47,117 nucleotides of DNA from Catenovulum agarivorans DS-2 (lineage in GTDB: Bacteria; Pseudomonadota; Gammaproteobacteria; Enterobacterales; Alteromonadaceae), in NCBI RefSeq assembly GCF_000568405.1, contig NZ_ARZY01000036.1:1-47117 (forward strand), given 5' to 3'. Below, piece after piece: positions 4,533-21,028 of the stretch. Below the pieces are notes generated by a model. The model had not been told where the DNA came from, searched no databases, and was given only the letters and a program-made list of their open reading frames with translations. A program made the translations under genes and the position numbers. Positions within the stretch are counted from its first letter, which is position 1, and each line of letters opens with the position of its first letter.

Positions 4533-4547
4533 TGATTGTAAGTGATG
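4533..4547 (+). promoter_or_regulatory. TGATT-N5-TGATG direct repeat (putative regulon operator)
   Basis: TGATT GTAAG TGATG begins 53 bp upstream of the ATG at 4586, in the divergent region serving both sulfatase operons. An extra TGATT lies 6 bp earlier (4527-4531). It is a weaker match to the 15-bp motif found at 13102, 14027, 18059 and 21014. A near-palindrome, GTTAACATGTTTAAC, also lies in this spacer at about 4502-4516. Confidence 0.5.
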
Positions 4548-4585
4548 GTTAAATGGTGTTTTTTGTAAGTAACTGCGTATATTGA

Positions 4586-5632
4586 ATGAAAGTACAATTG
4601 TTAAAGACACTGGTTGTCGCCCACTTTGCATTTTACTCTTGGGCTTCCCATGCAGCTCCTAGCTATGTTGAACAAAATGGAACTGTGGTGATTGAGGCAG
4701 AAAACTTTGCTGCGCAGCATTTAGACAACAAGCGTCGCTGGCATATTTTTTCGCAAACACAATTCCAACACAAATACCAAGACAGTGATTTACCTCATTT
4801 CGAAAACGCAAGTCGTGGCGCATATATTGAACTACTACCAGACACACGCGCAAACCACCACGAAACCTTAGTTAGAGGGGAAAATTTCGCTGAGTTTGGT
4901 GGTGCGGTGGCGGTATTGTCTTACCCTGTTTTGTTTGAAACGCCTGGTCGGTACTATATTTGGGCGCGTGCTTTTAGCACGGGTAGTGAAGACAATGGGG
5001 TGCATTTTGGTTTAAATAATCAATGGCCAGAATCGAGCGCGCGACTACAATTGTGTGATGGTAAAGATCAATGGACTTGGTCGTCTGCTCGTCGTGTACC
5101 AGAAAATCATTGTGGAACACCGAATACGGTAACGATCGATGTGCCAACTGCCGGAGTGCACAATTTTATGTTATCGATGCGTGAAGATGGCTTTGAGTTA
5201 GATAAGATCATTTTAACCCAAGACAAGCATTTTCAGCCGAATGGCCACTCCATGGCTGAAACAATTGCAAGCCAACAACAGTTTCCTGAGAAAACTCAGC
5301 TTAAAGGTATTTTGCAATACAAGCGTATACTCGACTCAAGCGAAAATTTTAAATATGTAGTTGATAAGCGAGAGGTCGGTACTCATCAACTTACTCTAGT
5401 GACATTATCGCAGCGTATTGGGCAAACCAGTTTTCAAATTCTGCAAAATGGTCAACAAATAGCAAGTTTTACTAACCCCAAGATGTCAGTCGATAATAAA
5501 GAGCTTTATCTATCAGTTGACGGGGTGTCTTTAAGTAAAAACGATATTATTGAAGTTAAAGTTCAACCAGATCAAAGTGGACAGCCTACACAAAACTTAT
5601 GGCGGGCGCTGGTGGTTGGAACGCAAAAGTAG
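4586..5632 (+). CDS. Periplasmic orphan carbohydrate-binding-like protein (GH115_C-like)
   Basis: This encodes 348 residues with a signal peptide (1-23, ending SHA). The mature start, with VVIEAENFAA at about residues 34-43, followed by a beta-rich domain containing GRYYIWARAF and LDKIILT, resembles the C-terminal beta-sandwich domain of GH115 glucuronidases and related binding modules. No catalytic domain is attached. A second beta domain occupies about residues 240-348. It leads the plus-strand operon with the sulfatase at 5660 (27-base gap) and lies behind a putative regulon site. It may hold oligosaccharides near the sulfatases, but it could also be an unrecognised enzyme or lyase. Family assignment is moderate; function is unknown. 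Confidence 0.65.
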   Translation: MKVQLLKTLVVAHFAFYSWASHAAPSYVEQNGTVVIEAENFAAQHLDNKRRWHIFSQTQFQHKYQDSDLPHFENASRGAYIELLPDTRANHHETLVRGENFAEFGGAVAVLSYPVLFETPGRYYIWARAFSTGSEDNGVHFGLNNQWPESSARLQLCDGKDQWTWSSARRVPENHCGTPNTVTIDVPTAGVHNFMLSMREDGFELDKIILTQDKHFQPNGHSMAETIASQQQFPEKTQLKGILQYKRILDSSENFKYVVDKREVGTHQLTLVTLSQRIGQTSFQILQNGQQIASFTNPKMSVDNKELYLSVDGVSLSKNDIIEVKVQPDQSGQPTQNLWRALVVGTQK

Positions 5633-5659
5633 TTAAAAACCTTTGGGTTGGGAAATAGT

Positions 5660-7123
5660 GTGATAAATACAAGATTTAAAAAATGTGCAATGGTGTTAGC
5701 TGTTGCGATTCTAAGTGCATGCTCTAATGGGCAGCAAACGGATAAGCAAGCAACGGCTGATATTCAACAAAAGCCGGTTAAAAAGCCTAATATATTGTTT
5801 ATTTTGGCCGACGATCATAGGTGGGATTTAATTGGTAAGTATCATCCGATTGTCAAAACACCAAATATAGATAAATTAGCCGACCAAGGCACAGTGTTTA
5901 AAAACGCTTTTGTTACCACACCCATTTGTGCTTCTAGTCGCGTGAGCATTTTAACGGGTTTAACGGAGCGCACGCATGATTTTACCTTCGCTCAACCAGC
6001 CACGGGCGCTGAAGAGTCTGCGTTAACTTACCCTAGTGTTTTAAAACAAAATGGCTACCAGTCTGCTTTTGTTGGTAAATATGAGATCAAGCTTTCAGGT
6101 GAAGACAGCGAAAGATTCGACTATTTTAAACCCTTGCTGCAGGCAAAAACAGAGCAATACAAGGGCAAAGAATTACCACAAACTTATTATATTGCTGAGC
6201 TTGCAAAAGACTTTATCCATCAATCAAAGTCTTCAGATAAACCATGGGTCATGGCCGTCAATTTTTGGAATCCACATGCGCATGACAGAGACGAAGAACT
6301 GCAATTCCATTATCCTGAAGAGTTTGAATCTTGGTATCAAGACGTAGAAATCCCGCCAGCAAAACTGTCATCAGATGCAGATTTTGCTGCTCTGCCAGAG
6401 CCATTAAAACAGTCAGCTGCTAGAATTCGTTGGCAGTTTAGATTTGGTAGCCCTGAGCTGTATCAAAAGATGACTAAACGCCACTATCGTGCGATTAGTA
6501 GCGTTGATAAAGCGGTTGGCATGATTTATCAATCGTTAGAAGCGCAAGGCATGGCCGATAATACAGTTATTATTTATACCGGTGACAATGGATATGCGAT
6601 GAATGAACGTCAACTTGCTGGTAAATGGTACGGATGGGAAGAAGATTTACGTGTACCTTTGATTATTTACGACCCGCGCAATCGTCAAGCGGGTGGAAAA
6701 GAAGTCGAAAAATTGGCATTGAATATAGATATTACGCCAACTATTTTGGATTATGCTGGCGTTGACGCACCAAAATCTTACCAAGGTCAAAGTTTACTTC
6801 CGTTAGTCGGGCAGGCTAACGATGTAAATTGGCGCGACGAATTCTTTTTTGAGCATATGTATCAGCCGAAACGCTTTTTAATACCTCCTATGGCTGGGGT
6901 TCGCACGGAGCAATGGAAGTATGTCGACTTTTACAAACACGACCATGTTCAGTTATATAATTTAGTTGAAGACCCGCAAGAGCAGTTCAATCTTGCCAAC
7001 CATCCTGACTATGCGCACCAGCAACAACAGATGGCTGAAAAACTAGCTGGATATATTCGCAAGTACGAAGCTGCAAGAAGTGACGAGGTGAAAGCGCGAG
7101 GCCAATATCCCAATAGCCAATAG
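5660..7123 (+). CDS. Lipoprotein sulfatase
   Basis: This S1-family sulfatase has about 487 residues. I chose GTG at 5660 because it gives a basic n-region and a lipobox LSAC with the lipidated cysteine at residue 21; a TTG at 5648 is in frame. D51-D52 are metal ligands, and residues 90-94 read CASSR, the formylglycine motif with serine in the third position as allowed in this class. TGDNG in the middle and the KWYG block further on supply other active-site positions. It is probably anchored in the outer membrane facing the periplasm. It is co-transcribed with the carbohydrate-binding-like gene and followed by a strong terminator. Its sulfate regiospecificity is unknown and need not match that of the other two sulfatases. 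Confidence 0.92.
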   Translation: MINTRFKKCAMVLAVAILSACSNGQQTDKQATADIQQKPVKKPNILFILADDHRWDLIGKYHPIVKTPNIDKLADQGTVFKNAFVTTPICASSRVSILTGLTERTHDFTFAQPATGAEESALTYPSVLKQNGYQSAFVGKYEIKLSGEDSERFDYFKPLLQAKTEQYKGKELPQTYYIAELAKDFIHQSKSSDKPWVMAVNFWNPHAHDRDEELQFHYPEEFESWYQDVEIPPAKLSSDADFAALPEPLKQSAARIRWQFRFGSPELYQKMTKRHYRAISSVDKAVGMIYQSLEAQGMADNTVIIYTGDNGYAMNERQLAGKWYGWEEDLRVPLIIYDPRNRQAGGKEVEKLALNIDITPTILDYAGVDAPKSYQGQSLLPLVGQANDVNWRDEFFFEHMYQPKRFLIPPMAGVRTEQWKYVDFYKHDHVQLYNLVEDPQEQFNLANHPDYAHQQQQMAEKLAGYIRKYEAARSDEVKARGQYPNSQ

Positions 7124-7140
7124 TGTTTGCTTTGGCATTA

Positions 7141-7166
7141 AAAAAGGCGCTATGTAGCGCCTTTTT
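7141..7166. terminator. Bidirectional terminator between sulfatase and IclR gene
   Basis: A 12-bp stem, AAAAAGGCGCTA (7141-7152) with TAGCGCCTTTTT (7155-7166), is flanked by A and T runs on both sides. It serves the converging genes ending at 7123 and 7197. Confidence 0.9.
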
Positions 7167-7196
7167 CGTTGTAAAAATCAATTGTGTTATGTCGTT

Positions 7197-7958
7197 TTAA
7201 GATGCGTTTAGTTCAGCTTTATAATATAGCTTGGTGCCAGCTTCTTTAACTATTTTGGCAATGCTGCAAATTAGGTCTGGGGTAAATTCGGTGATATGTG
7301 CAGTAATACCAATTGCCGCGACTGGGTTGCCTCGGTAATCATAGATTGGCGCAGCTAGACAGCGAACTTCGTTGGTGTATTCTCGCTCATCCATTGCGTA
7401 ACCCTTAGCAACTACCTTTTTTAGCTCTTCTTTAATTTGCGCGACCGTAGTGAGCGTTTTATCTGTCCGTTTTTCAAAACCCACTTCGTTAAAAATATCT
7501 TCAATTTTATTCGCATACAGGTGTGCCATAAAAATTTTACCTGTGCTAGAGCAATGTAAAGGCGCTAACGTACCTTGGCGCGAAGCTATTTTTGTTGGTC
7601 GAGGGCTGTCGCATACCTCAATGATCAGTGAGTTGTAACCGCTCGGTACAGCAAGATGAGACGAGAAACCTGTTAAAACAGAAAGTTCGTGTAATACCGG
7701 TACGGCTCTTTCTCTAAGTTTATTGGTTGATACCATTTGCAAACCAATATTTAACAGGCTATTGCCAGCAAAATAATGACGGCCCTGCTTGGAAGCCATT
7801 TGCTCGTGGATCAACGTTTTGAGAATTCGAAAAACCGTGGTATGAGGCATATCTAGCCTGTTTTCAATTTCAGAAGCGGTTAAACCCCGATCACTTTCAG
7901 CCAGCATCACCAGAATTTTACAGGCGTTTTTTAAATTCGGGATAAGGTAATCATTCAT
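7197..7958 (-). CDS. IclR-family transcriptional regulator
   Basis: This encodes 253 residues. An N-terminal winged helix-turn-helix (about 8-70, with GLTASEIENRLDMPHTTVFR as the HTH) is followed by the IclR effector-binding domain (about 75-250) with LHCSSTGKIFMA and REYTNEVRCLAAP, typical of the ligand pocket. IclR proteins usually control uptake and breakdown of carboxylated or aromatic compounds and sugar acids, often their own gene and a neighbour. It is divergent from the chemoreceptor at 8110 and convergent with the sulfatase. A short inverted repeat, TTTTG-N5-CAAAA (7994-8008), in the divergent spacer is a possible operator. The ligand is unknown; uronate or sugar-acid products of the locus are candidates. 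Confidence 0.92.
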   Translation of the reverse strand: MNDYLIPNLKNACKILVMLAESDRGLTASEIENRLDMPHTTVFRILKTLIHEQMASKQGRHYFAGNSLLNIGLQMVSTNKLRERAVPVLHELSVLTGFSSHLAVPSGYNSLIIEVCDSPRPTKIASRQGTLAPLHCSSTGKIFMAHLYANKIEDIFNEVGFEKRTDKTLTTVAQIKEELKKVVAKGYAMDEREYTNEVRCLAAPIYDYRGNPVAAIGITAHITEFTPDLICSIAKIVKEAGTKLYYKAELNAS

Positions 7959-7993
7959 TCATACACCTCTTTGGTTGAAAAACTTCCACAACT

Positions 7994-8008
7994 TTTTGTT
8001 TATCAAAA
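7994..8008. promoter_or_regulatory. Possible IclR operator
   Basis: The inverted repeat TTTTG-TTTAT-CAAAA lies 36 bp upstream of the IclR start in the divergent spacer. It is short and AT-rich, so support is weak. Confidence 0.25.
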
Positions 8009-8109
8009 GTGACAATTTCAAATTCAGTTGTTAAGATTACGTTATTGGTCACAAGTCGTCAAATTATTTCAATTGTGGTCAGTGGTTTTTTCTTCTAAAG
8101 GTGCTACTT

Positions 8110-10173
8110 ATGACGTTTATTAACCGTATCAAAATAAAAACCCGCATCATTGCACTTGTTATGATCCCTCTAATTGTGACTGCTTTGTTAGCATTTGAAA
8201 AATTGAGGGATGCTCAATTAGCTTTAAAACAAGCAGAAAATTTAGAGGTATTGCAAAAATACGTTTACATCACAGCACCACTGTTATCAGCGTTACAACA
8301 GGAATTGCTCTATACCAAGATGTATTTGGGGCCGGGTGGTCCTTCTGAGCCCATAGGTATGGAGTACAAGCAAGATATGCTTAATGCCCGGATTCCAGTA
8401 GATAAGGCACTAAAAAACTACAAGGCATTTATTCAAAATCAGCAGCAATTTGCACAATTCGACCAATTCGTAAAAGATATTAATGCAGTTAAAGCGGCTT
8501 TGGAACGTTTTGAATTTGTCCGTGACTTAGCAAAAAAACGTTTGAAGAAGTTAAAAAACACTCCAGAAATGCAAGTGGAAGGTAAATACACATGGACGAT
8601 AAGAGGCTTTCAAAACTTGGTTGATAAACTGATTTATAGCACCAACCAAGTGGTGTTGTTGGCAGCAAAAAATGACAAATTATCGCTGTACGCAAATGCG
8701 TTTAAAAATTTAGTGTATGCACAAGACAATGGGCTAATACTGGTAAGTGTAGTATACCGAGGCATCACAGGTACCTTGACGGTCAACTTTTATGGCGATT
8801 TGATGAAACGTGCAGCGTTAGAAGCGTCATACTTAGACAACTTTATTCGTTTTTCTAGTCCAGAAACGGTTGAATATTATAATAAACAACTCGGCGACAA
8901 ACAGTTTTACCGATTTGCGGTAAACAAGTATGAACACATTCGTAGAAAAACCCTTGATTATGTTGATAAACCCATTGATTTAGATAAAGAAGAATGGCTA
9001 AAAATTGGTAGCCAAATCAGTCAAGGGTATGAGCGTGTTATCGACAAAAGTTTACAAGATATCGAAACTGCTAAAACGGAATTAATTGATGATGCGCAAT
9101 CGCAAGTATACAACTTAATTGGCTTGATTACCTTGCTGATTGTTTCGCTTGCTTTGCTGTCGTTAAAAATTATCATGAGTATCAATACCCCGCTTAAAGC
9201 ATTGATGGGCGATTTTGATAAGCTGGCGACGACTAAAGATATGACGTTACGGAGCCAAATTGAAGGGCAAAATGAACTCAGTTTAGTTGGCCATGCGTTT
9301 AATTCGTTGATCGGTACTTTTGAAAAAACTTTATCAAATGTGCGTGAAAAGATAGTCTCGCTTGATAGTATCTCTAAACGAGTAACCAGCTCAATGCAAG
9401 ACTCGATGCGACTGATTGACAATCAAAAAGAAGCGACCGAAAGTATTTCGGTCGCGGTAAACCAAATGACATCTACTACACACGAAGTTGCCTCGATGGC
9501 ATCTTCGACTTCTGAAACCGTTAAGCGTGTTTATGATATATCCGTGACCAGCCAGCAAGATGCAAACAGAACAAAAGCCACTATTGATGATTTGATTGTT
9601 GAGCTGGGTGAAACCAATGAGTTAGTTGTGAATTTGAACAATGAAGCCGATCAAATTAGTAATGTTTTACAAGTGATTAAAGGCATTTCTGAACAAACCA
9701 ATTTATTAGCGCTTAACGCCGCTATCGAAGCTGCTCGTGCTGGTGAAATGGGTCGTGGTTTTGCGGTTGTAGCTGATGAGGTTCGAAACTTATCTAAGCG
9801 CACTCAAGACTCAACTGAACAAATTCAAAATCAAATTGAAGCTTTGATCAGCGGTGCTTCACAAGCGACCAACAAAATGCAATCGTTGCAAACAAGTGGT
9901 CAAGCTGCGGGAGATATCGTAGAAAAAAGCACTGCAGCTTTTGCTGTTATTAACAGTGAATTAGATCAAATTACCGACATGTCGAGTCAAATAGCCGTTG
10001 CTGCTGAAGAACAAACCAATGTCGCGGACGAAATTAATCAACGCATTCATGCAATAAAAGACGATTCTGACGCAATGCACCTGCAAAGCCGAGAAACCTT
10101 GTCATCAATAGAAACCTTATCGCAAAACGGTGATCAGCTGTTAGCGAATATTTCAGAGTTTAATTTTAAATAA
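8110..10173 (+). CDS. Methyl-accepting chemotaxis protein with NIT-like sensor domain
   Basis: This is an inner-membrane chemoreceptor of 687 residues from the ATG at 8110, served by AAGGTG 7-12 bases upstream; an in-frame GTG at 8101 is part of that RBS. TM1 is at about residues 12-30. A long periplasmic helical domain (about 31-330) resembles nitrate/nitrite-sensing (NIT) domains, though its true ligand is unknown. TM2 is at about 336-356, then HAMP, then the signalling domain with the conserved hairpin tip [19 protein letters not shown]. It is closely paralogous to the receptor at 35770 across the whole length. Its place beside carbohydrate genes suggests taxis toward substrate or breakdown products. 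The two-component system follows 66 bp downstream. Confidence 0.93.
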
Positions 10174-10239
10174 TATTATCCAAAAGTATTTGTGAGTATA
10201 TACTGGGCATATTCTTTTTTACTCTTTAGGCTTGCAGTT

Positions 10240-10923
10240 ATGAAGTTATTGGTGGTGGAAGACAACGAGCATATTCGTAAATCAATCGTTCGTGCTTTCA
10301 AAGCTAATAAATATGTTGTAGACGACACTGGTGACGGTGAAGATGGCTTGTGGCACGCATTGGAATATAATTACGATGTAATCGTGCTTGATATTATGCT
10401 GCCCAAGCTAGATGGCAAACAGATTTTGCAAAAAATTCGCCAAGCAGGTAAAGACACCCCTGTATTGTTTTTAACAGCGCTAGACCAGCTAGACGATAAA
10501 ATTGAAGGTTTTAAAATCGGTGCGGATGATTACTTAGTAAAGTCTTTTGCAATAGAAGAATTACTCGCTAGGGTAGAAGCGCTTAGCCGTCGTCGCTATC
10601 AAGCCATTTCATCCGTCATTAAGGTGGCTGACTTAGAGCTCGACAGAAGCGCTCGAACAGTTAGTCGCAATGGCCAATTGTTATCGATGACGCCTCAATC
10701 CTTCTCGTTGCTCGAACTATTTATGCTGCGTAAAGGTCAGGTCATTTCTCGTAGTGAAATTGAACAGTGTATATATGATGAGCATGTCAACCCGATGAGC
10801 AATGTGGTCGAATCTGCTATATATGCTCTTCGCAAAGCGTTACAAGTTGATAAATCACAACCGCAGTTAATTCAAACTAAACGGGGCATGGGATATTATT
10901 TACAGGATCCCGGTTGTGAATAG
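10240..10923 (+). CDS. OmpR/QseB-type response regulator
   Basis: This encodes 227 residues from the ATG at 10240 (TAGG upstream); an in-frame start at 10192 would add an unlikely hydrophobic leader. The receiver domain (1-115) has acidic D8 and the phospho-acceptor D51 in VLDIMLP. The conserved lysine is in YLVKSF, where almost all homologues have KPF. The C-terminal winged helix (about 130-225) ends with TKRGMGYYL, as in OmpR, QseB and PhoP proteins. The stop overlaps the GTG start of the kinase by 8 bp, so the two are translationally coupled. A candidate binding site, GCTCAT-N5-GCTCAT, lies ahead of the EF-hand gene just downstream. Confidence 0.95.
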   Translation: MKLLVVEDNEHIRKSIVRAFKANKYVVDDTGDGEDGLWHALEYNYDVIVLDIMLPKLDGKQILQKIRQAGKDTPVLFLTALDQLDDKIEGFKIGADDYLVKSFAIEELLARVEALSRRRYQAISSVIKVADLELDRSARTVSRNGQLLSMTPQSFSLLELFMLRKGQVISRSEIEQCIYDEHVNPMSNVVESAIYALRKALQVDKSQPQLIQTKRGMGYYLQDPGCE

Positions 10924-12295
10924 TTTAAGAAATCAGCTGCTGGGCTGGTTATTACCCAGCTTTATTGCTTTGTATACGATTGCGGCGGTTAGCCTATATC
11001 AAGTTGAGAAAGCACAGCAATATGAAAAATTAGATCAACAACTGCGCCATGTGGTCAATATGATGCGCTCAGAACTACTTCGCTCGCCTGGTAAAAGTCG
11101 TGAGCAACGTCTTTCTATAGAAAACCTACAAAGAGTATTGGCATTGGTCAGTGAAGATGAGCGGATTAACACACTCTATTATCAAGTGCTAAATCATAAA
11201 AAAGAATTGGTGTTGCGTTCAGAGTCACTGGCAGAAGTGCAGTTGCATATTCGTCCTGGTCCTATGATGTATACTCAAGCCTATACGGAAGATTTAACTC
11301 TTTATATTCGTAATGTATCTATACCTGAACGCCGTTTACGCAATCGACTGGTGGTTAGTATTGCACTTGATAACGCTGAGGCTATCAGCAAATTATCCCA
11401 GTACAAACAGCTGTTAATACTAGGTGGTGTGGTGTTCTGTTTGTTGTTTGCTTTGATTCTTATTTTTGTATTACGAAAGACTCTTCGTCCAGTCGAAAAT
11501 TTAGCACAGCTAGCTGCAAACATGAATGCAGATAACTTGTCACAGCGTTTTGCTGCCAATGCAATGCCATCAGAAATTAGACCTTTTATAAATAAGTTAA
11601 ATGATTTAATCAGCAGGTTAGATAATAGTTTTGCGCGTGAACGGCAATTTAGTAACGATTTAGCCCATGAAATGCGAACGCCGTTGGCCGCAATACGATC
11701 AGTCGCAGAGGTAGCGCAAAAGTGGCCGAGTGACAATATTAACGATGAACTTGCAGACATCGAATTATTAAGCAAACAAATGCAAAATATGGTTGATACG
11801 CTACTGACGCTTGCACGGTTAGATTCGGACAACCATAAACTTGAAGAAGAAAATATTGCGCTGGCACCATTTTTACAGCACATAGTTAAATTACATGAAA
11901 AGGCAATTTTAACCAAGCAACTGACATTTAAACTGAATGAGATAGACGCGGATGCAAGCTTACATACAGATAAAAATCTATTTCATATTCTATGGTCTAA
12001 TTTAATTGGCAACGCAGTGAGTTACGCGCCAAACGGTACACAAGTTAAACTGATGCATACAGTTGGTTGTGTCAGTATTTGTAATGTTTGTGACGGTTTA
12101 ACTGAAGCTGATTTAGACAATATATTTGAGCGCTTTTGGCGACACGACAGTGCGCGCACTAACCAAGCCCACAGTGGTTTAGGATTGTCTATTGCTAAAC
12201 GCTGTGCCCAATTAATGCAAGGGCAACTGACAGTTGAATTGCAACAGCATGAATCTGGTACACAAATATATTTTCACTTTTTTTATAAAAAATAA
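10916..12295 (+). CDS. Sensor histidine kinase (QseC/CarS-like)
   Basis: This encodes 459 residues from a GTG start at 10916 overlapping the response-regulator stop. TM1 is at about residues 8-28. A periplasmic sensor of about 135 residues follows, then TM2 (about 166-187) and HAMP (about 188-240). The phospho-acceptor H251 is in NDLAHEMRTPLAAI. The ATPase domain has the N box LIGNAVSYAPNG and the G box HSGLGLSIAKR. The architecture matches QseC and the calcium-responsive CarS kinases of Vibrio and Pseudomonas. The next gene encodes a secreted EF-hand protein, so a divalent-cation signal is plausible but not shown. Confidence 0.95.
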   Translation: MNSLRNQLLGWLLPSFIALYTIAAVSLYQVEKAQQYEKLDQQLRHVVNMMRSELLRSPGKSREQRLSIENLQRVLALVSEDERINTLYYQVLNHKKELVLRSESLAEVQLHIRPGPMMYTQAYTEDLTLYIRNVSIPERRLRNRLVVSIALDNAEAISKLSQYKQLLILGGVVFCLLFALILIFVLRKTLRPVENLAQLAANMNADNLSQRFAANAMPSEIRPFINKLNDLISRLDNSFARERQFSNDLAHEMRTPLAAIRSVAEVAQKWPSDNINDELADIELLSKQMQNMVDTLLTLARLDSDNHKLEEENIALAPFLQHIVKLHEKAILTKQLTFKLNEIDADASLHTDKNLFHILWSNLIGNAVSYAPNGTQVKLMHTVGCVSICNVCDGLTEADLDNIFERFWRHDSARTNQAHSGLGLSIAKRCAQLMQGQLTVELQQHESGTQIYFHFFYKK

Positions 12296-12310
12296 TAAAT
12301 ATTTTAGTTT

Positions 12311-12344
12311 GCTCATCTTACGCTCATATAGCTTTTTATAAGAT
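12311..12344 (+). promoter_or_regulatory. Candidate response-regulator box and -10 of the EF-hand gene
   Basis: GCTCAT (12311-12316) is repeated exactly at 12322-12327, giving a 6-5-6 direct repeat with 11-bp period, the geometry bound by OmpR-family dimers such as PmrA. A -10-like TAAGAT lies at 12339-12344, so the box would cover the -35 region, as expected for activation by the adjacent response regulator. Confidence 0.5.
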
Positions 12345-12376
12345 AACCTCGTCAACTAAACAAAGAGGTAATTTAC

Positions 12377-12832: not shown

Positions 12833-13160
12833 GCTTGAATAGTTAGACGTATTCCCAATCAAGCGTTGTCACGCAAGTTGCAACGCTTTATCCCCTTAAT
12901 AAAAAATACCCATTTATGTAGCTCGCTACACTTCAATCGCTATGCCTTGGATAGATACTAGGCAAACTGCTGAAAAATTGTGCTCGAAAGAACAGCAGGC
13001 CTTTGATTCAGTTTATCAGTAAAAATCACTCAAGAGATATTCAAAATGTTTAAGGTATGTTGCAAAAATGTATCTTTTAAAGGTTGTTGTTTGCTTTATG
13101 TTGATTTAATATGATTAAAAATAATCGTTAGTGGTTTGTTTGTCGTATAGTGAGGGCAAT
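12833..13160. other. Intergenic region with hairpins, no gene seen
   Basis: These 328 bases contain an 8-bp stem, AAGCGTTG (12861-12868) with CAACGCTT (12881-12888), which is a weak terminator for the EF-hand gene. A small hairpin, GTAGCTCGCTAC, lies at about 12918-12929 and a CTGCTG/CAGCAG pair at about 12969-13000. The right end carries the TGATT-N5-TGATT site. A small RNA is possible but nothing specific supports one. Confidence 0.4.
13102..13116 (+). promoter_or_regulatory. TGATT-N5-TGATT direct repeat (putative regulon operator)
   Basis: TGATT TAATA TGATT ends 44 bp before the ATG at 13161. The 15-mer is identical to the one at 21014-21028. Confidence 0.65.
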
Positions 13161-13985
13161 ATGAAAGGTAATAATTTTTTAATGCTGTTTTTAAGGGTTA
13201 CTTCGGTGGCTATGCTGTGTTTATTGATAGCTGCAAAGGCATTTGCATTTGACCTGAAAGTTCCTAAACCATCAGACCCTGCCCATAACCATAAAATAGC
13301 TTTATTAAAACTGGTTGTTCAGCATGCACCAGAGCACAATATCAACTTGGTTGAAATACCTACGGGTAACCGACGATATCAAATTAGTTTAATTGATACA
13401 GGCGACCTAGATTTAATGTGGGCACCTAAAAATAACGAGTTAGAGCAACAAATGCGTGCAGTACAAGTTGCGTTAGACCAAGATGTATTGGGGGTTACCG
13501 GCCTAATTGTGCGTAAATCTGATGTCGGTCGCTTCAGTGCCTTGAGCAATATTAATCAATTAAAATCGTTGAAAGCGGGTGTACAAAAAGCATCGGTTAC
13601 ACGACGGATTTTGGAAGCGCACAATTTCACTGCTGTATCTACACTGCGCGGCAGTTTTGCACATATGCTGGATGGTGGCCGGTTTGACTACTACTTGACC
13701 CCTATTTTTAAAGCTCAAACTGTGGTTGATCGCTGGGCCGCTCAAGAGAACATAGAAGATGTAATGGTGCATCCAGATGTACTAATTAAACTACCCTTAA
13801 CCAGCTATTTTTACGTTAGAAAAGATAATCAGAGACTAGCGAGTATTATTACAGACGCTCTGCATAATGCGATTGAATCAGGCGATTTTGAAGCTTTACT
13901 TAAGCAAAGCCACGAATACAAAGCGGCGGAAGTTTATTTGAATAATCAAAATCAAACTATATTCGACGTAACTGGTTCAATTTGA
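13161..13985 (+). CDS. Periplasmic solute-binding-like protein (SBP_bac_3 type)
   Basis: This encodes 274 residues from the ATG at 13161, preceded by GAGGG; an in-frame upstream start at 13131 lacks an RBS. A long signal peptide (about 1-31, ending AFA) leads to a two-lobed domain resembling family-3 extracellular solute-binding proteins: GDLDLMWAP early, LKAGVQKASVTRRILEAHNF at the lobe switch and FDYYLTP near the hinge. No ABC permease or ATPase lies nearby, so it may instead present ligand to a chemoreceptor or sensor kinase, or act as a detached sensor. The TGATT-N5-TGATT site upstream links it to the GMC, BNR_4 and aldolase genes. The ligand is unknown. Confidence 0.75.
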   Translation: MKGNNFLMLFLRVTSVAMLCLLIAAKAFAFDLKVPKPSDPAHNHKIALLKLVVQHAPEHNINLVEIPTGNRRYQISLIDTGDLDLMWAPKNNELEQQMRAVQVALDQDVLGVTGLIVRKSDVGRFSALSNINQLKSLKAGVQKASVTRRILEAHNFTAVSTLRGSFAHMLDGGRFDYYLTPIFKAQTVVDRWAAQENIEDVMVHPDVLIKLPLTSYFYVRKDNQRLASIITDALHNAIESGDFEALLKQSHEYKAAEVYLNNQNQTIFDVTGSI

Positions 13986-14026
13986 CTAGGTGATACTGGC
14001 TTTACATTGTTTTAATTGAAATAAAT

Positions 14027-14041
14027 TGATTGAATGTGATT
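14027..14041 (+). promoter_or_regulatory. TGATT-N5-TGATT direct repeat (putative regulon operator)
   Basis: TGATT GAATG TGATT ends 49 bp before the GMC start at 14091. A -10-like TATATT follows at about 14054-14059. Confidence 0.65.
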
Positions 14042-14090
14042 GTTTTGTTGCGGTATATTAAATTAGGTTAAAAATAATAGAAAAACAAAT

Positions 14091-15809
14091 ATGAAACAGA
14101 GTGAATTTGACGTAATAGTTGTAGGTTCTGGCATTACAGGTGGTTGGGCCGCAAAAGAGTTTTGTGAGAAAGGCTTCAACACCTTAGTGATTGAACGCGG
14201 TCGGAATGTTGAACATCGAGGCCCTGAATATACAGATATGCTGGCGCCGTGGCAGATTGAAAACCGCGATCTTATCCCTGAAAGCTTTTCTGAAGAAGGT
14301 CGTTATCCTCATATCTTGGGTAAAGGGTATTTGAGAAACTCGACTAAACAATTTTTTACCGACGAAAAAGAACATCCTATTTCGTACCCAGAGGACAAGC
14401 CATTTATGTGGGTACGAGGTTATCAATTGGGAGGACGCTCGTTAACTTGGGGCCGACAAGTTTTACGGTGGAGTAAAAAAGATTTTGAATCAAACGCTAA
14501 AGATGGTCATGGTGTACCTTGGCCAATAGGCTATGACGACTTGGCTCCGTGGTACGATTATGTTGAATCATTTATCGGTGTATCTGCCAACAAAGATGGT
14601 TTAGACGCTGTTCCTGATGGTGTGTTTCAAAAGCCATGGGAGATGAGTGCGCCAGAAAAACATATTGCGAGTAATCTAGCTAAGCATTATGACGACCGCC
14701 GTTTAATAGTGGGTCGTGCAGCTAACTTAACAGAACCAACCCAAGAGCAATTAGAGTTGGGTCGAGGGCCATGTCAGGCACGTTCTTATTGTAAAAAAGG
14801 CTGTAGCTTTGGTGGTTATTTTAGTTCTTTATCTGCCACTTTACCTGCGGCAAAACGCACTGGAAAATTAACTTTAGTAACCGACTCTATAGTCGCAACT
14901 GTAGACTACGATGAGCAATCGGGTAAAGCTTCGGGTGTGACTGTGATTGATGCACACACCAAAGAAAAACGCAGTTACAAAGCGCGAGTCGTATTTTTAT
15001 GCGCCTCAGCTTTGGGGTCAATTCAAATATTATTAAATTCGAAATCAAAAAGCTTTCCAAACGGTATTGCTAACTCAAGTGGTACTGTTGGTCGCTACAT
15101 TATGGACCATTACACTGGGGTGATAGCTGATGGTGAAGTGCCAGGGTTTGAAGATAAATATAATTATGGGCGCAGACCAATCGCGACTTACATTCCGAAC
15201 TATCGACATGAGCAACACCCAGGGACCGACTTTATTCGTGGTTATGGTTATCAAGCAACGGCAACTCAGCGTAAAAACACAGGTACAACTGCAAAACGAG
15301 TAGGTATTGGTGCTGAAGTAAAAGCACAAGCAAGACAACCTGCACCTTGGCGTTTCTTGGCGTTAATGTATGGTGAAATGTTGCCTTATTACGATAATGT
15401 TGCGAGTTTACACCCTACAAAAACTGACCAGTGGGGTATTCCACTATTGCATATTGATGCGACCATTAAAGAAAATGAACGCAAGCAAATTAGGCAAGCG
15501 ACTAAAGATATTAAAGAAATGCTCGAAATTGGTGGTTGCACCGACATAAACCTTCGTGTAGTTCCTGAAACAGAGCACATCAAAATAGGTGATAGAATTC
15601 ACGAAATGGGTGGCGCGTGCATGGGAGATGACCCGAATACTTCGGTACTCAACAAATGGGCGCAAGCACACGATGTGCAGAATCTATTCGTCACTGATGG
15701 GGCATGTATGTCTTCTTGCGCAACACAAAACCCATCGCTTACCTATATGGCGATTACGGCCCGGTCGGCTAATTACGCGGCTAAATTATTAGAATCTGGC
15801 GAACTATAA
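14091..15809 (+). CDS. GMC-family oxidoreductase (sugar dehydrogenase large subunit)
   Basis: This FAD enzyme of 572 residues is expected to oxidise a sugar or sugar-alcohol hydroxyl. The dinucleotide fold at the N-terminus has GSGITGGWAA followed by ERG. The GGRSLTWGRQVLRW block lies at about residue 111-124. The C-terminal half has the GMC active-site histidine in HEMGGACMG and asparagine in TQNPSLTYMA. It has no signal peptide, while the gene 11 bases downstream encodes the Tat-exported gluconate 2-dehydrogenase subunit 3 homologue, so the pair is probably exported folded. Such pairs occur in 3-keto-glycoside pathways together with DUF1080 hydrolases, as found at 3629. No cytochrome subunit is encoded nearby, leaving the electron acceptor open. 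Confidence 0.92.
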   Translation: MKQSEFDVIVVGSGITGGWAAKEFCEKGFNTLVIERGRNVEHRGPEYTDMLAPWQIENRDLIPESFSEEGRYPHILGKGYLRNSTKQFFTDEKEHPISYPEDKPFMWVRGYQLGGRSLTWGRQVLRWSKKDFESNAKDGHGVPWPIGYDDLAPWYDYVESFIGVSANKDGLDAVPDGVFQKPWEMSAPEKHIASNLAKHYDDRRLIVGRAANLTEPTQEQLELGRGPCQARSYCKKGCSFGGYFSSLSATLPAAKRTGKLTLVTDSIVATVDYDEQSGKASGVTVIDAHTKEKRSYKARVVFLCASALGSIQILLNSKSKSFPNGIANSSGTVGRYIMDHYTGVIADGEVPGFEDKYNYGRRPIATYIPNYRHEQHPGTDFIRGYGYQATATQRKNTGTTAKRVGIGAEVKAQARQPAPWRFLALMYGEMLPYYDNVASLHPTKTDQWGIPLLHIDATIKENERKQIRQATKDIKEMLEIGGCTDINLRVVPETEHIKIGDRIHEMGGACMGDDPNTSVLNKWAQAHDVQNLFVTDGACMSSCATQNPSLTYMAITARSANYAAKLLESGEL

Positions 15810-15820
15810 GAGGTAACAAC

Positions 15821-16399
15821 ATGAAAGATTTAAAAATTACCCGACGCGTATTTTTAGGTGGTTTGGGTGCATCTGCAATTGTTGTTACCGCGCCCGTGCT
15901 GGCGAGTGTGGTCAATGCCGATACGGGCATTCAACAGGTGACAAAAGCAGGTCAATTTTTTACCGCTAACGAGTTAACTGTGCTGGTGGATGTTGCCGAG
16001 ATTATGATCCCTCGTACTGATACCCCAGGCGCAACTGACGTCCATGTAATGCCTGTGCTCGATGCAATGATGCTCACATGGGCGGGCGATAGTACTAAAT
16101 CACAGTTCAAAGCCTTGGTTCAGCAAATTGAGCAGCTAGCAAAAAATTCTTTTGAGCAAGAATATATTCAATTAGACCAAGCGAGTCGTAATCTATTGAT
16201 TTCAGAATTGGACAAAAGAGCATTTGCCAATACCAAAACTGACTTGTCTGAAAATTACCGTGAGTTTAAAGAATTGGTATTCCACATTTACTACACCTCA
16301 GAAGAAGCCAACCCTGACTACAAAGTGATACCTGGTGGGTATAGAGGCGATATTACCAAGTTGGAGCTAATTGAAATAAACAAGCGAGGGTATTTATAA
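15821..16399 (+). CDS. Gluconate 2-dehydrogenase subunit 3 family protein (Tat-exported)
   Basis: This encodes 192 residues with the RBS AGAGG. The N-terminus carries a twin-arginine signal: TRRVFLGG at residues 7-14, followed by a hydrophobic stretch ending ASVVNA. The mature region matches the small subunit of membrane-bound gluconate and fructose dehydrogenases (PF13618), with FTANELTVLVDVAEIMIPRT near its start. In known enzymes this subunit carries the GMC flavoprotein through the Tat system and stabilises it. It is in an operon with the GMC gene (11-base gap). The downstream hairpins at 16406-16474 separate it from the converging sulfatase gene. Confidence 0.9.
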   Translation: MKDLKITRRVFLGGLGASAIVVTAPVLASVVNADTGIQQVTKAGQFFTANELTVLVDVAEIMIPRTDTPGATDVHVMPVLDAMMLTWAGDSTKSQFKALVQQIEQLAKNSFEQEYIQLDQASRNLLISELDKRAFANTKTDLSENYREFKELVFHIYYTSEEANPDYKVIPGGYRGDITKLELIEINKRGYL

Positions 16400-16405
16400 C
16401 AATAT

Positions 16406-16474
16406 CACCAGCGATATATTTAAATACATCGCTGGTGCATGAAACATCGGGTAATTGCTTGAGCAATGATGTTT
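16406..16474. terminator. Two hairpins between converging genes
   Basis: CACCAGCGAT (16406-16415) pairs perfectly with ATCGCTGGTG (16428-16437). A second, nested structure pairs AAACATC (16442-16448) with GATGTTT (16468-16474) around ATTGCT-TG-AGCAAT. T tracts are poor, so termination may rely on structure or Rho. Confidence 0.55.
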
Positions 16475-16492
16475 AGGCAGGTAGTGACTTCG

Positions 16493-17974
16493 CTATTTTA
16501 GTTGAGCCAATACCGGATCATTTGTTTGTTGCATCTTGCTATAAAGTTGTTGTTCAAGCTTTTTAACGATTGCTTGATATTTGGGGTGGTCCTTTTGGCT
16601 AATTAAGTTAGTTGTTTCATCCGGGTCATTAACGAGGTCGTAAAACTCATCTCGACCTTGGTTTTTAAAATCTTTAACTAGCTTATATTTGCCGTCACTA
16701 TACATACGCATTTGCGTTACACTTTGATGCAACGTTGAATAAGCAGCGTAATAGTCAGTTGATAATATTAAGTTTTCATCTAGCAATGCAGGGGTAAAGT
16801 CTTTACCTCGAATAATGTTATCTTTACTTATTTTACCTTTAGCAATGCTAACTAGGGTTGGAAACCAGTCAAGGTTAGGCATGGTTGAGAGGTTTACCGA
16901 GCCTGCTTTAATTTTATTTGGCCAACGTACAATGGTTGGTACTTTTAAGCTTGGGTCGTACATATTTGGTCTTTGCCCTGTCGGGATATTGTCTGTACCT
17001 TTAGATTTTTTGTTTAATAACCAAAAACCATTGCCTTTGTGCCACATACCATTAAAACCTATGTTGTAGCCGTGATCAGATGTGAAAATTACTAGGGTAT
17101 TGTCAGCTAAACCTAACGTATCTAAAGTTTCCATTAATCGACCTATGTTGCGGTCAATACCTTTGACGCTAGAAAGGTATTCGCGCATTAACTTAGTACC
17201 GCGCTCGGTATTTAAGTTTGGGTAGTCCGGGTGCGGCAGTTTAATATCCATATCTTTAAATGGTGCTTCGTCTTCTGGCGCGACAGGTAAAAACCTGTAG
17301 TGGGGCGCACGGTAGTGCAGCGACAAGGCAAATTTTCCTGCTTTATTATTTCTTATAAAGTCAATTGCATAGTCGGTGAGTATGTCTGTAGTTAAACCTT
17401 CAAGTTGAGTTTCTACACCCTTTACTTCAAGTTGAGGATTAACTGGTGATGCGCCACCTTCTCGAAAGCCGATAAATTCGTGGTAGCCATGTTTAGTCGG
17501 GTGAAAAGGCTCTTTTTCCCCTATGTGCCATTTGCCAATTAAACCTGTGTAGTAACCAGCTTGTTGTAGTACTTCGGTCCAAGTTTCGTATTTTGTATCT
17601 AAACCTAAATCAAATTGATGACCCGTTAAGGTTTTAGCCTTTGGATTGTTATTTATCCAATCATCAATACCTAGCTCATATCCATATTGAGAGGTTAATA
17701 AACTAGCGCGTGATGGGCTACAAACTGGTGTTGTTGCATAAGCATTTGGCAAGTACATGCCTTGCTCGGTAAGTTTATCTAAATTTGGGGTAATTGCTTG
17801 GGTATTACCTGCACGGCCGAGCGCCCATGGTGCTTGATCGTCTGTATAAATAAATAAAATATTTGGTGTGTCGTTTGTTGCTGCTTGGCTGTCCGAGTCT
17901 GAATCGGTAAAAGTTGAACTGCAGCCGCTTAATAATACTAATGTGGCTGATAGTGCAAAAGCTAGTTGCTTCAT
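16493..17974 (-). CDS. Lipoprotein sulfatase
   Basis: This third S1-family sulfatase has 493 residues from the ATG at 17974, which has AAGGG upstream; an in-frame TTG at 17995 is less likely. The lipobox LSGC places the lipidated cysteine at residue 18. Metal ligands D45-D46 are in YTDDQ, and residues 85-89 read CSPSR, the formylglycine motif. KWHIG at about residue 150 and TSDHGYNIG further on complete the catalytic signature. It is divergent from the BNR_4 gene, with a TGATT-N5-TGATT site in the shared 157-bp spacer, and converges on the GMC operon. It differs clearly from the other two sulfatases around the active site, suggesting a different sulfate position or sugar. Confidence 0.93.
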   Translation of the reverse strand: MKQLAFALSATLVLLSGCSSTFTDSDSDSQAATNDTPNILFIYTDDQAPWALGRAGNTQAITPNLDKLTEQGMYLPNAYATTPVCSPSRASLLTSQYGYELGIDDWINNNPKAKTLTGHQFDLGLDTKYETWTEVLQQAGYYTGLIGKWHIGEKEPFHPTKHGYHEFIGFREGGASPVNPQLEVKGVETQLEGLTTDILTDYAIDFIRNNKAGKFALSLHYRAPHYRFLPVAPEDEAPFKDMDIKLPHPDYPNLNTERGTKLMREYLSSVKGIDRNIGRLMETLDTLGLADNTLVIFTSDHGYNIGFNGMWHKGNGFWLLNKKSKGTDNIPTGQRPNMYDPSLKVPTIVRWPNKIKAGSVNLSTMPNLDWFPTLVSIAKGKISKDNIIRGKDFTPALLDENLILSTDYYAAYSTLHQSVTQMRMYSDGKYKLVKDFKNQGRDEFYDLVNDPDETTNLISQKDHPKYQAIVKKLEQQLYSKMQQTNDPVLAQLK

Positions 17975-18058
17975 GTTTTTGTGCCCTTCAATCAAATTTT
18001 GGAGAATTTAGCTCTTTAATCGAATATTACTACTTTTACGCAATTTTGTATAATTTAT

Positions 18059-18073
18059 TGATTAAATGTGATT
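18059..18073 (+). promoter_or_regulatory. TGATT-N5-TGATT direct repeat (putative regulon operator)
   Basis: TGATT AAATG TGATT ends 58 bp before the BNR_4 start and lies in the spacer shared with the divergent sulfatase gene, so it could act on both. Confidence 0.65.
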
Positions 18074-18131
18074 GTTTGTGACTTTGTTTGGGTGTTATTA
18101 TTAGCAAAAAGTCCAAATAGAGTAAGTAAAC

Positions 18132-19523
18132 ATGTTTAGTGAGTTGTCGAATAACATCAAAAAACAATTGAAAAATTTGTCTAAAGCCTGCGTGTTAGTT
18201 GGGTTAACTATGCAAAGCCCTTTAGCCAATGCACAACAAGCAGAGGTGTTAGATACACAAGCAATCGACTTTGCTTGGTCTGGTCACCGAATTAAACCTT
18301 ATTTGTTAACTCGTGGTGAACACCAGTTTGTCGCCTATTTTGATGCGAATCGACAAATGACAGTTGCTTACCGTGAACTGAAAGGCAAATGGCGTTATTA
18401 CAAAGTAGATAGTTGGTTGGGGTGGGATAGCCACAACTATGTCACCATGGAACTCGATTCTGTTGGCAATTTGCATGTCATGGGCAATATGCATGCTGAT
18501 CCATTAGAGTATTTCCGTACCTCTGAGCCATACAATATCCGTTCGTTAAAACGCGTTAACACCATGGTCAATGCAAATGTTGAGCAACGAGTGACATATC
18601 CTATTTTTATGCTCAATAAAGCGGGCGAGCTATTGGTTAAATACCGAAGTGGCAGCAGCGGCAATGGTGACGAAATTTACAACATTTATGACACCAAAAC
18701 AGAAACTTGGAAAAAATTACACAGTAATCAATTTTTAGACGGCCAAGGTTTAATGAGTGGTTATTTTGAAGGCCCAACGTTAGGCCCAGATGGATATTTT
18801 CATTTAATTTGGGTATGGCGTAATTCACCCAATGCGGCGACTAATCATTCATTGTCGTATGCCAAAAGTGCGGATTTAGTTAATTGGCAAGACTCAAACG
18901 GCAAAAGCATTAGCTTGCCAGTTACTTTAAATAAAGCTGAAGTGGTCGACCCAGTTGAGCCGTTTGGCGGCATGATCAACGGTAACGTTAAACTCGGTTT
19001 TGATAGCCAAAAACGCCCAGTGATCTCTTACCACAAGTACGATGCCAAAGGTAATACACAAATGTTTGTTGCACGCAAACTAGGTAAAAAATGGCAACAT
19101 GTACAAATTAGTAATTGGACAGATTTTCGTTGGGACTTTGGTGGCCATGGTTCGCTGGGGCGTTTTCCAATTCGCCCACAAGCGCCTGTGGCATTAAATG
19201 ATAACGAACTCGGTGTAACGGTTAGAAAAAACGAGCAAATTTTACAGTTTGTTTTGGCACAAGACACGCTTAAAACCAAACAGGTTGTGCCGTCAAATCT
19301 GTATCCACCTATTATCAAAAAGGCTTCAGAGCATGCTAATCAGTCGTTGTTGACTGATCCGCGTTTTAATTTTGAGCTACAAGTATTTGAAGGCAAGGGC
19401 GATTTAAGCCCGGCGGGTGGTCAGTATTATTTGTCTTGGTATAACCAACCAGGCAACAGGGACAATGCCCATTCAGTTATTAGCCCTGCAAGCGTTTTAC
19501 TATTGCACGAAATTAAAGATTAA
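18132..19523 (+). CDS. BNR_4 beta-propeller protein, probable polysaccharide lyase (ulvan-lyase-like)
   Basis: This encodes 463 residues with a signal peptide of about 34 residues ending LANA. The sequence DSHNY at 99-103 followed by GNLHVMGNMHADPLEYFR is the hallmark of the BNR_4 family (PF15892), a seven-bladed propeller. Members include PL24 and PL25 ulvan lyases, which use histidine, tyrosine and arginine residues to cleave rhamnose-uronate links by beta-elimination, and GH145-type enzymes on the same scaffold. H101, H115 and H121 are candidate catalytic or structural residues. The divergent sulfatase and shared putative operator fit a role in sulfated glycan breakdown. I cannot separate lyase from hydrolase activity, or confirm ulvan as substrate, from this sequence. 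Confidence 0.8.
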   Translation: MFSELSNNIKKQLKNLSKACVLVGLTMQSPLANAQQAEVLDTQAIDFAWSGHRIKPYLLTRGEHQFVAYFDANRQMTVAYRELKGKWRYYKVDSWLGWDSHNYVTMELDSVGNLHVMGNMHADPLEYFRTSEPYNIRSLKRVNTMVNANVEQRVTYPIFMLNKAGELLVKYRSGSSGNGDEIYNIYDTKTETWKKLHSNQFLDGQGLMSGYFEGPTLGPDGYFHLIWVWRNSPNAATNHSLSYAKSADLVNWQDSNGKSISLPVTLNKAEVVDPVEPFGGMINGNVKLGFDSQKRPVISYHKYDAKGNTQMFVARKLGKKWQHVQISNWTDFRWDFGGHGSLGRFPIRPQAPVALNDNELGVTVRKNEQILQFVLAQDTLKTKQVVPSNLYPPIIKKASEHANQSLLTDPRFNFELQVFEGKGDLSPAGGQYYLSWYNQPGNRDNAHSVISPASVLLLHEIKD

Positions 19524-19578
19524 TTAATCAAACCCTGAAATAAATTAAGGGATTAACCTAAAACTAAAAGGACTTAAA

Positions 19579-20940
19579 ATGCCTAAACTTAAACCACTAC
19601 TACTTATTGCTGGCTTATGCACCGCTTTTGGTGCACAAGCTAGTATGTTTGATGCTCAAACCGCTGCAGCTGAGAAAGACTATAAAACGGCCGCAATACA
19701 CTTTAAAAGATCGGCTGATTTAGGGTTAGCAAAAGCTCAATCATCTATCAGCCAGCTATATTTACATGGTGCAGGGATTAAAAAAGACCCGATTAAAAGT
19801 TTTGTGTATATGGCTATGGCATACGACCAAACAAAATCCGACGAGCTACGTGGAAATATGGCAGGGATCTACCGCTCGTTAGCTAAAAATCAACAAGAAA
19901 TAGCACTGACTCAATATGAAAAATTTTCGGCACGCTATAGCCAGCAAGCTTTAACCAAACGTATTTACCCAGTGTTAAAAGCGCGACCAATTGTTTGGAA
20001 AGCGGGCAAGAAGCTTAAGCAAGCTGACAATCGAGGGGTTCAAATATCGATCTTTTCGGTTAATCGCATGCCATTGATGACAACTATCTACCAATACGAT
20101 ATCGCTGAAGATGGATCGGTTAGGGATATATCAGTTGCGCATGACTTTTTCGCCAATACTAGTATGAAAAAAAACGCGACCATGGCGATGTATTACGCAA
20201 AATATAGCGTCAGAAAACGCAAGAATGGTCAACCAGTTTATGTCGAGAATTATCGTACTCGTTGGGTACAAAAAGAATTGACCCGAGAGTATATAAAAGA
20301 TGAATTACCCAATTTTGATCGGCTGATTAACCAGCTTGAAAAGCTGGCAAAAGCTGACAACGCAGGTGCAATGTACGAGCTTGCAATGTACTACATAGCG
20401 TATCCTGCACTACAAGTTAAACTCGCTAAAGCGCTCGACTATTTGCAGCGAGCTGCTGAGCTGCAGCACCCTGAAGCTGCAGCTGAATACGCATATCATT
20501 TATTTAGAGGGTATGGACGTGCCAGAAACCCAAAAGCCGGCTTTAAGTATTTGTTGCAAGGTGGTATTGCAGGTAGTGCGAATGCACAATACCGCCTCGG
20601 GCGGGAATTGCTCAGTGGCAACATTGTCGAACGAGACATCACTAAAGCGATGTTTTGGTTAGAACAAGCCGTGGAAGCTGAACATGCTGCTGCGAAGTAC
20701 TGGTTGGCTCGCACTTTAATTGATCACACCAAGCTGGATGAGCAATCCAGTAAACGCGTAGCGCAATTGTTAGATGACGTTGCCGAAAGCGAAAATGTTA
20801 ATCCCACCTGGTATTACTATCGTGCAAAACATCAAAATTTAATCGGCAAACAAAAGCGCGCTCAATCTTTGTTTACTGAGGCGAAAGATTTAGCAAAAGA
20901 ATATGGCTGGAATGTGGGTGATTGGGTGTTACAAGGGTGA
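19579..20940 (+). CDS. Secreted Sel1-repeat protein with central TonB_C-like domain
   Basis: This encodes 453 residues with a signal peptide (1-21, ending AQA). One or two Sel1 helical repeats occupy about residues 35-75. A beta domain at about 140-235, with YQYDIAEDGSVRDISV, resembles the TonB C-terminal domain. Further Sel1 repeats at about 260-380 include NAGAMYELAMYY and NAQYRLGRELLSG. It lacks the N-terminal membrane anchor and proline-rich stretch of a true TonB, so it is probably a periplasmic scaffold rather than an energy transducer. It follows the BNR_4 gene by 55 bases on the same strand and may be co-transcribed with it, though no catabolic role is evident. Confidence 0.75.
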   Translation: MPKLKPLLLIAGLCTAFGAQASMFDAQTAAAEKDYKTAAIHFKRSADLGLAKAQSSISQLYLHGAGIKKDPIKSFVYMAMAYDQTKSDELRGNMAGIYRSLAKNQQEIALTQYEKFSARYSQQALTKRIYPVLKARPIVWKAGKKLKQADNRGVQISIFSVNRMPLMTTIYQYDIAEDGSVRDISVAHDFFANTSMKKNATMAMYYAKYSVRKRKNGQPVYVENYRTRWVQKELTREYIKDELPNFDRLINQLEKLAKADNAGAMYELAMYYIAYPALQVKLAKALDYLQRAAELQHPEAAAEYAYHLFRGYGRARNPKAGFKYLLQGGIAGSANAQYRLGRELLSGNIVERDITKAMFWLEQAVEAEHAAAKYWLARTLIDHTKLDEQSSKRVAQLLDDVAESENVNPTWYYYRAKHQNLIGKQKRAQSLFTEAKDLAKEYGWNVGDWVLQG

Positions 20941-21013
20941 TTGTTCTTCAGCTTTTGTTGTTCTAAATCAAAGTGTACAAATTATTTGCAGATTTGTAGT
21001 GCTAAATTTCAAA

Positions 21014-21028
21014 TGATTTAATATGATT
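21014..21028 (+). promoter_or_regulatory. TGATT-N5-TGATT direct repeat (putative regulon operator)
   Basis: TGATT TAATA TGATT ends 43 bp before the aldolase start at 21072 and is identical to the site at 13102-13116. Confidence 0.65.

Follow-up and report, generated by a model that had tools for sequence, protein, structure and literature searches.

We describe here five repeat arrays in a 47,117-nt stretch of Catenovulum agarivorans DS-2 (contig NZ_ARZY01000036.1, positions 1 to 47,117, hereafter the window), each of which lies a short distance upstream of one of five scattered genes. We put at roughly 0.8 the probability that these arrays serve as operators for a RhaR-like rhamnose repressor of the DeoR family, encoded elsewhere in the genome on contig C11 near a rhamnose operon. 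The arrays and the five predicted target genes are as follows, with array scores from a matrix that was derived from other genomes.

4523 to 4547, + strand: 10-bp array TGCTTGATTG TGATTGTAAG TGATG, 38 bp upstream of the 4586 gene, score 19.1
4586 to 5632, + strand: carbohydrate-binding-like (CBM-like) protein with a GH115_C match, predicted target
13092 to 13116, + strand: 10-bp array TGCTTTATGT TGATTTAATA TGATT, upstream of the SBP gene, score 19.5
13161 to 13985, + strand: solute-binding-like (SBP) secreted protein, without Pfam, NCBIfam or PDB match, predicted target
14027 to 14051, + strand: 10-bp array TGATTGAATG TGATTGTTTT, upstream of the GMC oxidoreductase gene, score 26.2 (25-mer at 14017), the best in the window
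14091 to 15809, + strand: GMC oxidoreductase, predicted target
18059 to 18083, + strand: 10-bp array TGATTAAATG TGATTGTTTG TGACT, between the divergent BNR_4 and sulfatase genes, score 17.4
18132 to 19523, + strand: BNR_4 protein, predicted target
21014 to 21058, + strand: 10-bp array of five TGATT-like units, upstream of the tandem class II aldolase gene, score 20.4
21072 to 22382, + strand: protein of 436 residues with two class II aldolase domains, predicted target

The initial annotation had described these sites as a bare direct repeat, TGATT-N5-TGATT, and its particulars hold. Exact copies are found on the + strand at 13102, 14027, 18059 and 21014, those at 13102 and 21014 being the same letter for letter, and the looser copy at 4533 departs from the pattern by one mismatch. 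The distances to the start codons, given as 38 to 58 bp, are 38 bp (4586), 44 bp (13161), 49 bp (14091), 58 bp (18132) and 43 bp (21072); the second of these is counted to the ATG at 13161, the longest open reading frame (ORF) opening at a GTG at 13131. The 15-mer copies are embedded in longer 10-bp tandem arrays with the unit TGATTGAATG. Shuffled windows contain a mean of 0.22 exact copies, and the four observed were reached in none of 100 shuffles; when the spacing was varied from N0 to N25, N5 was the richest with four exact pairs, and every other spacing gave at most two. CRP-type palindromes near the five sites were rejected, the best still having three mismatches to TGTGA-N6-TCACA.

The strongest evidence comes from a motif learned without the window, upstream of the rhamnose catabolic gene rhaEW in other genomes. 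Of 80 rhaEW loci gathered, the analysis rests on the 26 whose titles are proteobacterial; the 54 excluded are mostly from Verrucomicrobia and other phyla. Arrays of three units scoring at least 23 with a hand-weighted scan are present at 20 of the 26 loci, and the same scan reaches a maximum of 20.9 in control regions of this genome (L041, L059-L061); locus L136 additionally has an array, which lies partly within the matched stretch and was read at that place in L272. Genera with the array upstream of rhaEW include Alteromonas, Psychrosphaera, Aliiglaciecola and Paraglaciecola. Blind Gibbs sampling of 20 rhaEW upstream regions, none of them from this genome and with six near-duplicates dropped by hand, converged on TGATTGAAAATGCTTGACTATGATT with a total score of 510, as against 306 (standard deviation 8) for Markov shuffles and 298 (standard deviation 5) for pieces drawn at random from those loci, with 12 sets of each control. 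The resulting matrix places exactly the five arrays at ranks one to five in the window (26.2, 20.4, 19.5, 19.1 and 17.4), and the ranking is the same when the Catenovulum training rows are left out (17 non-Catenovulum rows). A trinucleotide simulation yields 0.055 matches of at least 17.4 per window, with five reached in none of 200 runs. The sites are thus kept upstream of rhamnose catabolic operons, as in an RhaR regulon, and a near-exact 15-mer also lies within 240 bp upstream of the rhaEW match in six of the ten other rhaEW-bearing genomes of the family. The arrays are a real, conserved motif and, as far as sequence can tell, are best read as predicted operators.

Within the genome itself the specificity of the motif depends on how it is written. 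The bare TGATT-N5-TGATT pattern has 26 matches genome-wide compared with 18 for its reversed control, and it was dropped as a genome-wide marker because it is too common; the specificity expected of a genome scan did not appear in this form. It did appear in the tighter TGATTNAATRTGATT, which has five exact matches in 4.57 Mb, four of them in the window and the fifth 110 bp upstream of an ORF that resembles TonB receptors. A search with TGATTGAATGTGATT allowing two mismatches gives 36 matches (34 distinct places) compared with 10 for the reversed control. Allowing one mismatch or none leaves seven matches in six distinct places, each upstream of a sugar-use gene. Three of these places are on C11 (before rhaEW, a GH88-family gene and a TonB receptor), one is on C28 (before a TonB-receptor-like ORF), and two are in the window (before the GMC and BNR_4 genes). 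At rhaEW the site falls within the 5' end of the longest ORF of that gene; since the alignments with most relatives begin only at residue 27-36, we place the true start some 76 bp downstream of the site.

Contig C11 carries genes for rhamnose isomerase, an FGGY kinase, rhaEW, a TRAP transporter, KduI-like, GH78, GH88-family and sulfatase proteins, and its rhamnose operon opens with rhaEW and rhaI, both assigned by NCBIfam above cut-off. The 25-bp matrix was run on about 8% of this genome, a part picked in part for holding pattern matches; there a PL24 ulvan-lyase gene on C28 (protein 7e-231 to a short ulvan lyase) has a site at C28:32111 scoring 19.3, and a second PL24 gene, on C35 (protein 1e-282), has a weak one at C35:11428 with two mismatches and a score of 11.4. 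Sites upstream of rhamnose and ulvan genes are therefore found on three contigs besides that of the window (C11, C28 and C35), and together with the window-independent matrix and the sites in other genera they lend good support to the proposal that the motif defines a regulon hidden by gene order. The lyase, GH88-family and TonB-receptor genes reached by these searches had no part in defining the motif.

The promoters of orthologous genes are conserved in part. In the syntenic stretch of the genome listed as C. agarivorans, all three targets that have an orthologue retain a site (CBM-like 19.4, SBP 17.7, BNR_4 17.7). The 18059 array lies within a 27-base block that is identical there while the BNR_4 flanks have changed, and the flanks of the CBM-like and SBP sites are barely alignable. 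Across 100 kb of C. agarivorans there are six arrays scoring at least 14, the other three standing upstream of rhaEW (31.0, its position taken from locus L128), a GH88-family gene (23.5) and an SDR gene (14.2). The SBP orthologue of genome G005 has a site, and in genome G007 sites are found 237 bp upstream of the BNR_4 orthologue (20.9) and at a TonB receptor (17.1) and rhaEW (24.8). The aldolase at 21072-22382 has no orthologue in the other seven genomes of the genus (1e-40), so its promoter could not be compared.

The binder of the arrays is probably the DeoR-family protein of C11, which of the candidates considered fits the sequence data best. It is encoded outside the window at 13152-13991 of locus L056, roughly 5 kb away from the rhamnose operon, and its best NCBIfam model is UlaR, matched over nearly its full length with 203 bits (curated cut-off 244). 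Among 118 genomes of the family, a DeoR homologue (1e-30) is present in 14 and rhaEW (1e-100) in 11, and all 11 rhaEW carriers have both (Fisher 4e-13, without correction for relatedness among the genomes). A DeoR-family gene lies within the fetched stretch at 17 of the 26 rhaEW loci, as it does near the rha genes on C11, and when 21 loci were checked at genome level a homologue at 1e-77 or better was found for 20. Neiella, the sole exception, has a DeoR match of 29% and no clear array either. Near-exact 15-mers are also enriched in genomes with the DeoR homologue, with 34 in 14 such genomes and 86 in the 104 that lack it (2.43 versus 0.83 each, p 1e-4), and the excess persists when this genome is left out (p 4e-4). 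The helix sequence SEATIRRD, which by family membership would be the recognition helix, is shared by 23 of 25 DeoR homologues, and Neiella has SEVTIRKD. What emerges directly from the computation is the motif and its conservation, the kinds of gene that it precedes and its co-occurrence with DeoR.

The architecture of these predicted operators is of a known kind. Predicted DeoR-type RhaR motifs in four groups are direct repeats with a 10-11-bp period (PMC3870299), and the window arrays are likewise tandem, imperfect direct repeats with a 10-bp period. In the DeoR-type RhaR regulons of Chloroflexales, Rhizobiales and Thermotogales a DeoR-family regulator is similarly encoded near rha genes including rhaEW, and tandem repeats precede the rha genes, with four tandem sites in Chloroflexus (PMC3870299). 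In gel shifts, Chloroflexus RhaR binds a 38-bp fragment with four tandem sites, and the shift is lost in the presence of L-rhamnulose (PMC3870299). The repeat unit differs, however, being TGATTGAATG here and TCGAAA in Chloroflexus, and Alteromonadales are not among the lineages given in the figure legends or main text of that paper (PMC3870299). The regulon predicted here is also wider than the RhaR regulons and takes in PL24 ulvan lyases and TonB receptors as well as sulfatase and GMC genes, spread over several contigs. In the open-licence literature, at the level of titles and abstract openings, we found no report of an ulvan, RhaR or DeoR regulon for these bacteria, nor of this repeat unit or regulon reach. 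UlaR functions in ascorbate utilisation; it is the top NCBIfam model for the C11 protein, but the score is below cut-off and the setting here is that of rhamnose. A rhamnose/ulvan regulon is plausible.

Other proteins could in principle occupy these sites. We consider it improbable that the C11 protein binds at rhaEW only and that a second DeoR-family paralogue, or some other protein, binds the window arrays, although the genome has four HTH_DeoR matches, genome G004 has two close DeoR homologues (86% and 57%), and units in the window vary (TGATTTAATA compared with TGATTGAATG). A matrix built from rhaEW promoters alone nevertheless puts all five window sites on top, a single 15-mer, slightly varied, underlies the sites of both the window and the rha genes, and only one other protein in this genome matches the C11 DeoR protein at 1e-15, with 27% identity.

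The initial annotation had looked for the regulator within the window, among OmpR-, AraC- and IclR-type proteins, and in this it was not borne out. OmpR/PhoB-family regulators commonly recognise a pair of direct half-sites at a spacing of about 10-11 bp, and the operators of OmpR, CpxR and PhoB have such half-sites, spaced about 10 bp, near the -35 region. Activation by a response regulator of this kind, such as that encoded at 10192, would thus suit the spacing of the arrays, and the ends of the arrays, 38-58 bp from the start codons, fit the position of a class II activator; the gene is also located among the targets and keeps its position in C. agarivorans. We regard this as quite unlikely all the same, because the regulator does not track the motif. 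Orthologues of at least 60% identity occur in four of 28 genomes, all from the genus of the window and one of them the window's own, whereas the array precedes rhaEW in other genera, and OmpR-type matches occur at three of the 26 rhaEW loci, at 35-36% identity. In G005 the gene does not occur in the 40 kb covered around the CBM-like, IclR and MCP genes, its orthologue being on contig C1. The gene adjoins kinase and EF-hand genes and its nearest model is a heavy-metal regulator, below cut-off. The arrays further differ from OmpR/CpxR/PhoB operators in having a unit of more than five bases (TGATTGAATG), repeated up to five times.

Binding by the AraC-type (46021) or IclR-type (7197) regulator of the locus is very unlikely. 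Both genes are inside the window, and the IclR gene keeps its position with the CBM-like, sulfatase and MCP genes in C. agarivorans and with the CBM-like and MCP genes in G005; neither protein, however, has a homologue (E 1e-8) at any of the 26 rhaEW loci, about 10 kb being covered on each side. IclR operators are usually palindromes, unlike the direct repeats seen here. The novel AraC-type rhamnose regulators have a 21-bp period (PMC3870299) rather than the 10 bp of these arrays. That an AT-rich pentamer pair merely happens to sit in intergenic DNA is scarcely credible, and we consider the idea disposed of by the blind matrix and conservation. The 26 genome-wide matches of the bare pattern compared with 18 for its reversed control speak for it; the shuffles, the N5 spacing, the Gibbs-sampling controls and the simulation speak against it as well.

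Several observations weigh against control of these promoters by the C11 repressor. Since the DeoR and rhaEW genes are often neighbours, joint transfer may account for part of the association between them. Of the five rhaEW loci at which the array is weak, four (L064, L067, L071 and L132) do have a DeoR homologue, at 50-78% identity, and from our reading of the letters L067 and L071 appear to have diverged 10-bp arrays. Near-exact sites away from rhaEW lie outside ORFs in 11 of 21 cases in genomes with DeoR and in 5 of 19 in those without, which is not significant (p 0.09). Sites upstream of the DeoR gene of this genome are weak, the best scoring 11.7, and 8 of 25 DeoR loci reach 14 within 350 bp upstream, so that autoregulation does not seem to be general. 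Eighteen of the 34 two-mismatch TGATTGAATGTGATT places are inside ORFs (counting the one in the overlong start of rhaEW), and among the remaining 16 several do not lie upstream of a sugar gene. Conservation in relatives, proposed as a further test, held for the three C. agarivorans orthologues and failed for the GMC orthologues of G005 (7.6, 11.7) and G007 (10.6), which have no site of at least 14 within 300 bp upstream of the gene or gene pair, and for the BNR_4 and CBM-like orthologues of G005, which have none directly upstream.

We also note a different 10-bp repeat (TGACCAAAAT TGACCGATAT TGAGTTAATG) at L032 18811-18840, before the Glc3/GMC gene pair of G005. It scores 11.7 with the matrix and is possibly an operator of another specificity.

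Binding, repression and the response to an inducer can be proposed by analogy with DeoR-type RhaR. Repressor subunits would line up head-to-tail on consecutive 10-bp units (consensus TGATTGAATG) along one face of the helix, and as the array often overlaps a predicted -35 element (TTGANT within the unit), RNA polymerase would be blocked. At six of ten promoters (CBM-like, GMC, BNR_4, aldolase, rhaEW and the C28 receptor) the top-scoring -35 box, alone or tied, falls within the array; this is a consensus match only, the repeat unit itself including TTGA. Breakdown of ulvan or another rhamnose-rich glycan would then supply a catabolic intermediate, L-rhamnulose or its phosphate, that frees the repressor from the DNA, and rhamnose catabolism would be switched on jointly with the scattered lyases, sulfatases, TonB receptors and oxidoreductases.

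The substrate is most likely ulvan because PL24 lyases are among the predicted targets on other contigs; from the window alone a different rhamnose-capped glycan is possible. The BNR_4 protein of the window is closest to 5mvh, 5mum, 5muk and 4irt, which we take to be GH145-type rhamnosidases, and then to L-rhamnose-alpha-1,4-D-glucuronate lyases.

Two of the five arrays are intergenic between divergent genes (4399/4586 and 17995/18132), and further genes of the window may be controlled with the predicted targets. These genes, the gene that follows the GMC gene, and the two window regulators judged not to be the binder, are as follows.

Beginning at 4399, - strand: 3-keto-disaccharide hydrolase/sulfatase genes, leftward and divergent from the 4586 gene
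5648 to 7123, + strand: sulfatase, 15 bp downstream of the 4586-5632 gene
10192 to 10923, + strand: OmpR/PhoB-type response regulator
15821 to 16399, + strand: gluconate 2-dehydrogenase subunit 3-like protein, 11 bp downstream of the GMC gene
16493 to 17995, - strand: sulfatase, divergent from the BNR_4 gene
46021 to 47088, - strand: AraC-type regulator

The sulfatase at 5648 is probably co-transcribed with the 4586 gene, and the array at 4523-4547 could act on the leftward 3-keto-disaccharide hydrolase/sulfatase genes too. Similarly, the sulfatase at 16493-17995 may share the 18059 array with the BNR_4 gene, such that the leftward genes at both divergent arrays may be co-controlled.

A weaker matrix match (14.8) is present at 25419-25443 on the + strand, between two leftward genes and with no rightward gene behind it. 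An array-like site at L038 17857-17901 (17.3) has no ORF directly downstream and could reflect an unannotated transcript or chance. Solute-binding-like secreted proteins are encoded near TonB receptors or motif sites at 13131-13985 in the window, L038 8628-9491 and L057 5640-6521, and the last of these, on C11, has a weak SBP_bac_3 match below cut-off. The rhamnose operon also encodes a 570-residue protein (L056 2571-4283) without a Pfam match that is found at 13 of the 26 rhaEW loci with 60-94% identity.

A pattern at five promoters thus becomes a regulon that can be tested, for which there is now a candidate regulator as well as a matrix to search with. A single rhamnose-sensing DeoR repressor might act as the ulvan master switch in Catenovulum, governing dispersed ulvan lyases, TonB receptors and sulfatases, a possible 3-keto-sugar oxidation branch and rhamnose catabolism, with the number of units (two to five) setting the strength of repression through cooperative head-to-tail filaments over the -35 box; we offer this tentatively and rate it below even odds. 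If the repressor does act as proposed, it would explain how ulvan genes scattered through the genomes of marine bacteria are coordinated in a way that gene order does not reveal, and would give an induction logic for the use of green-algal polysaccharide in which the signal is a rhamnose intermediate.

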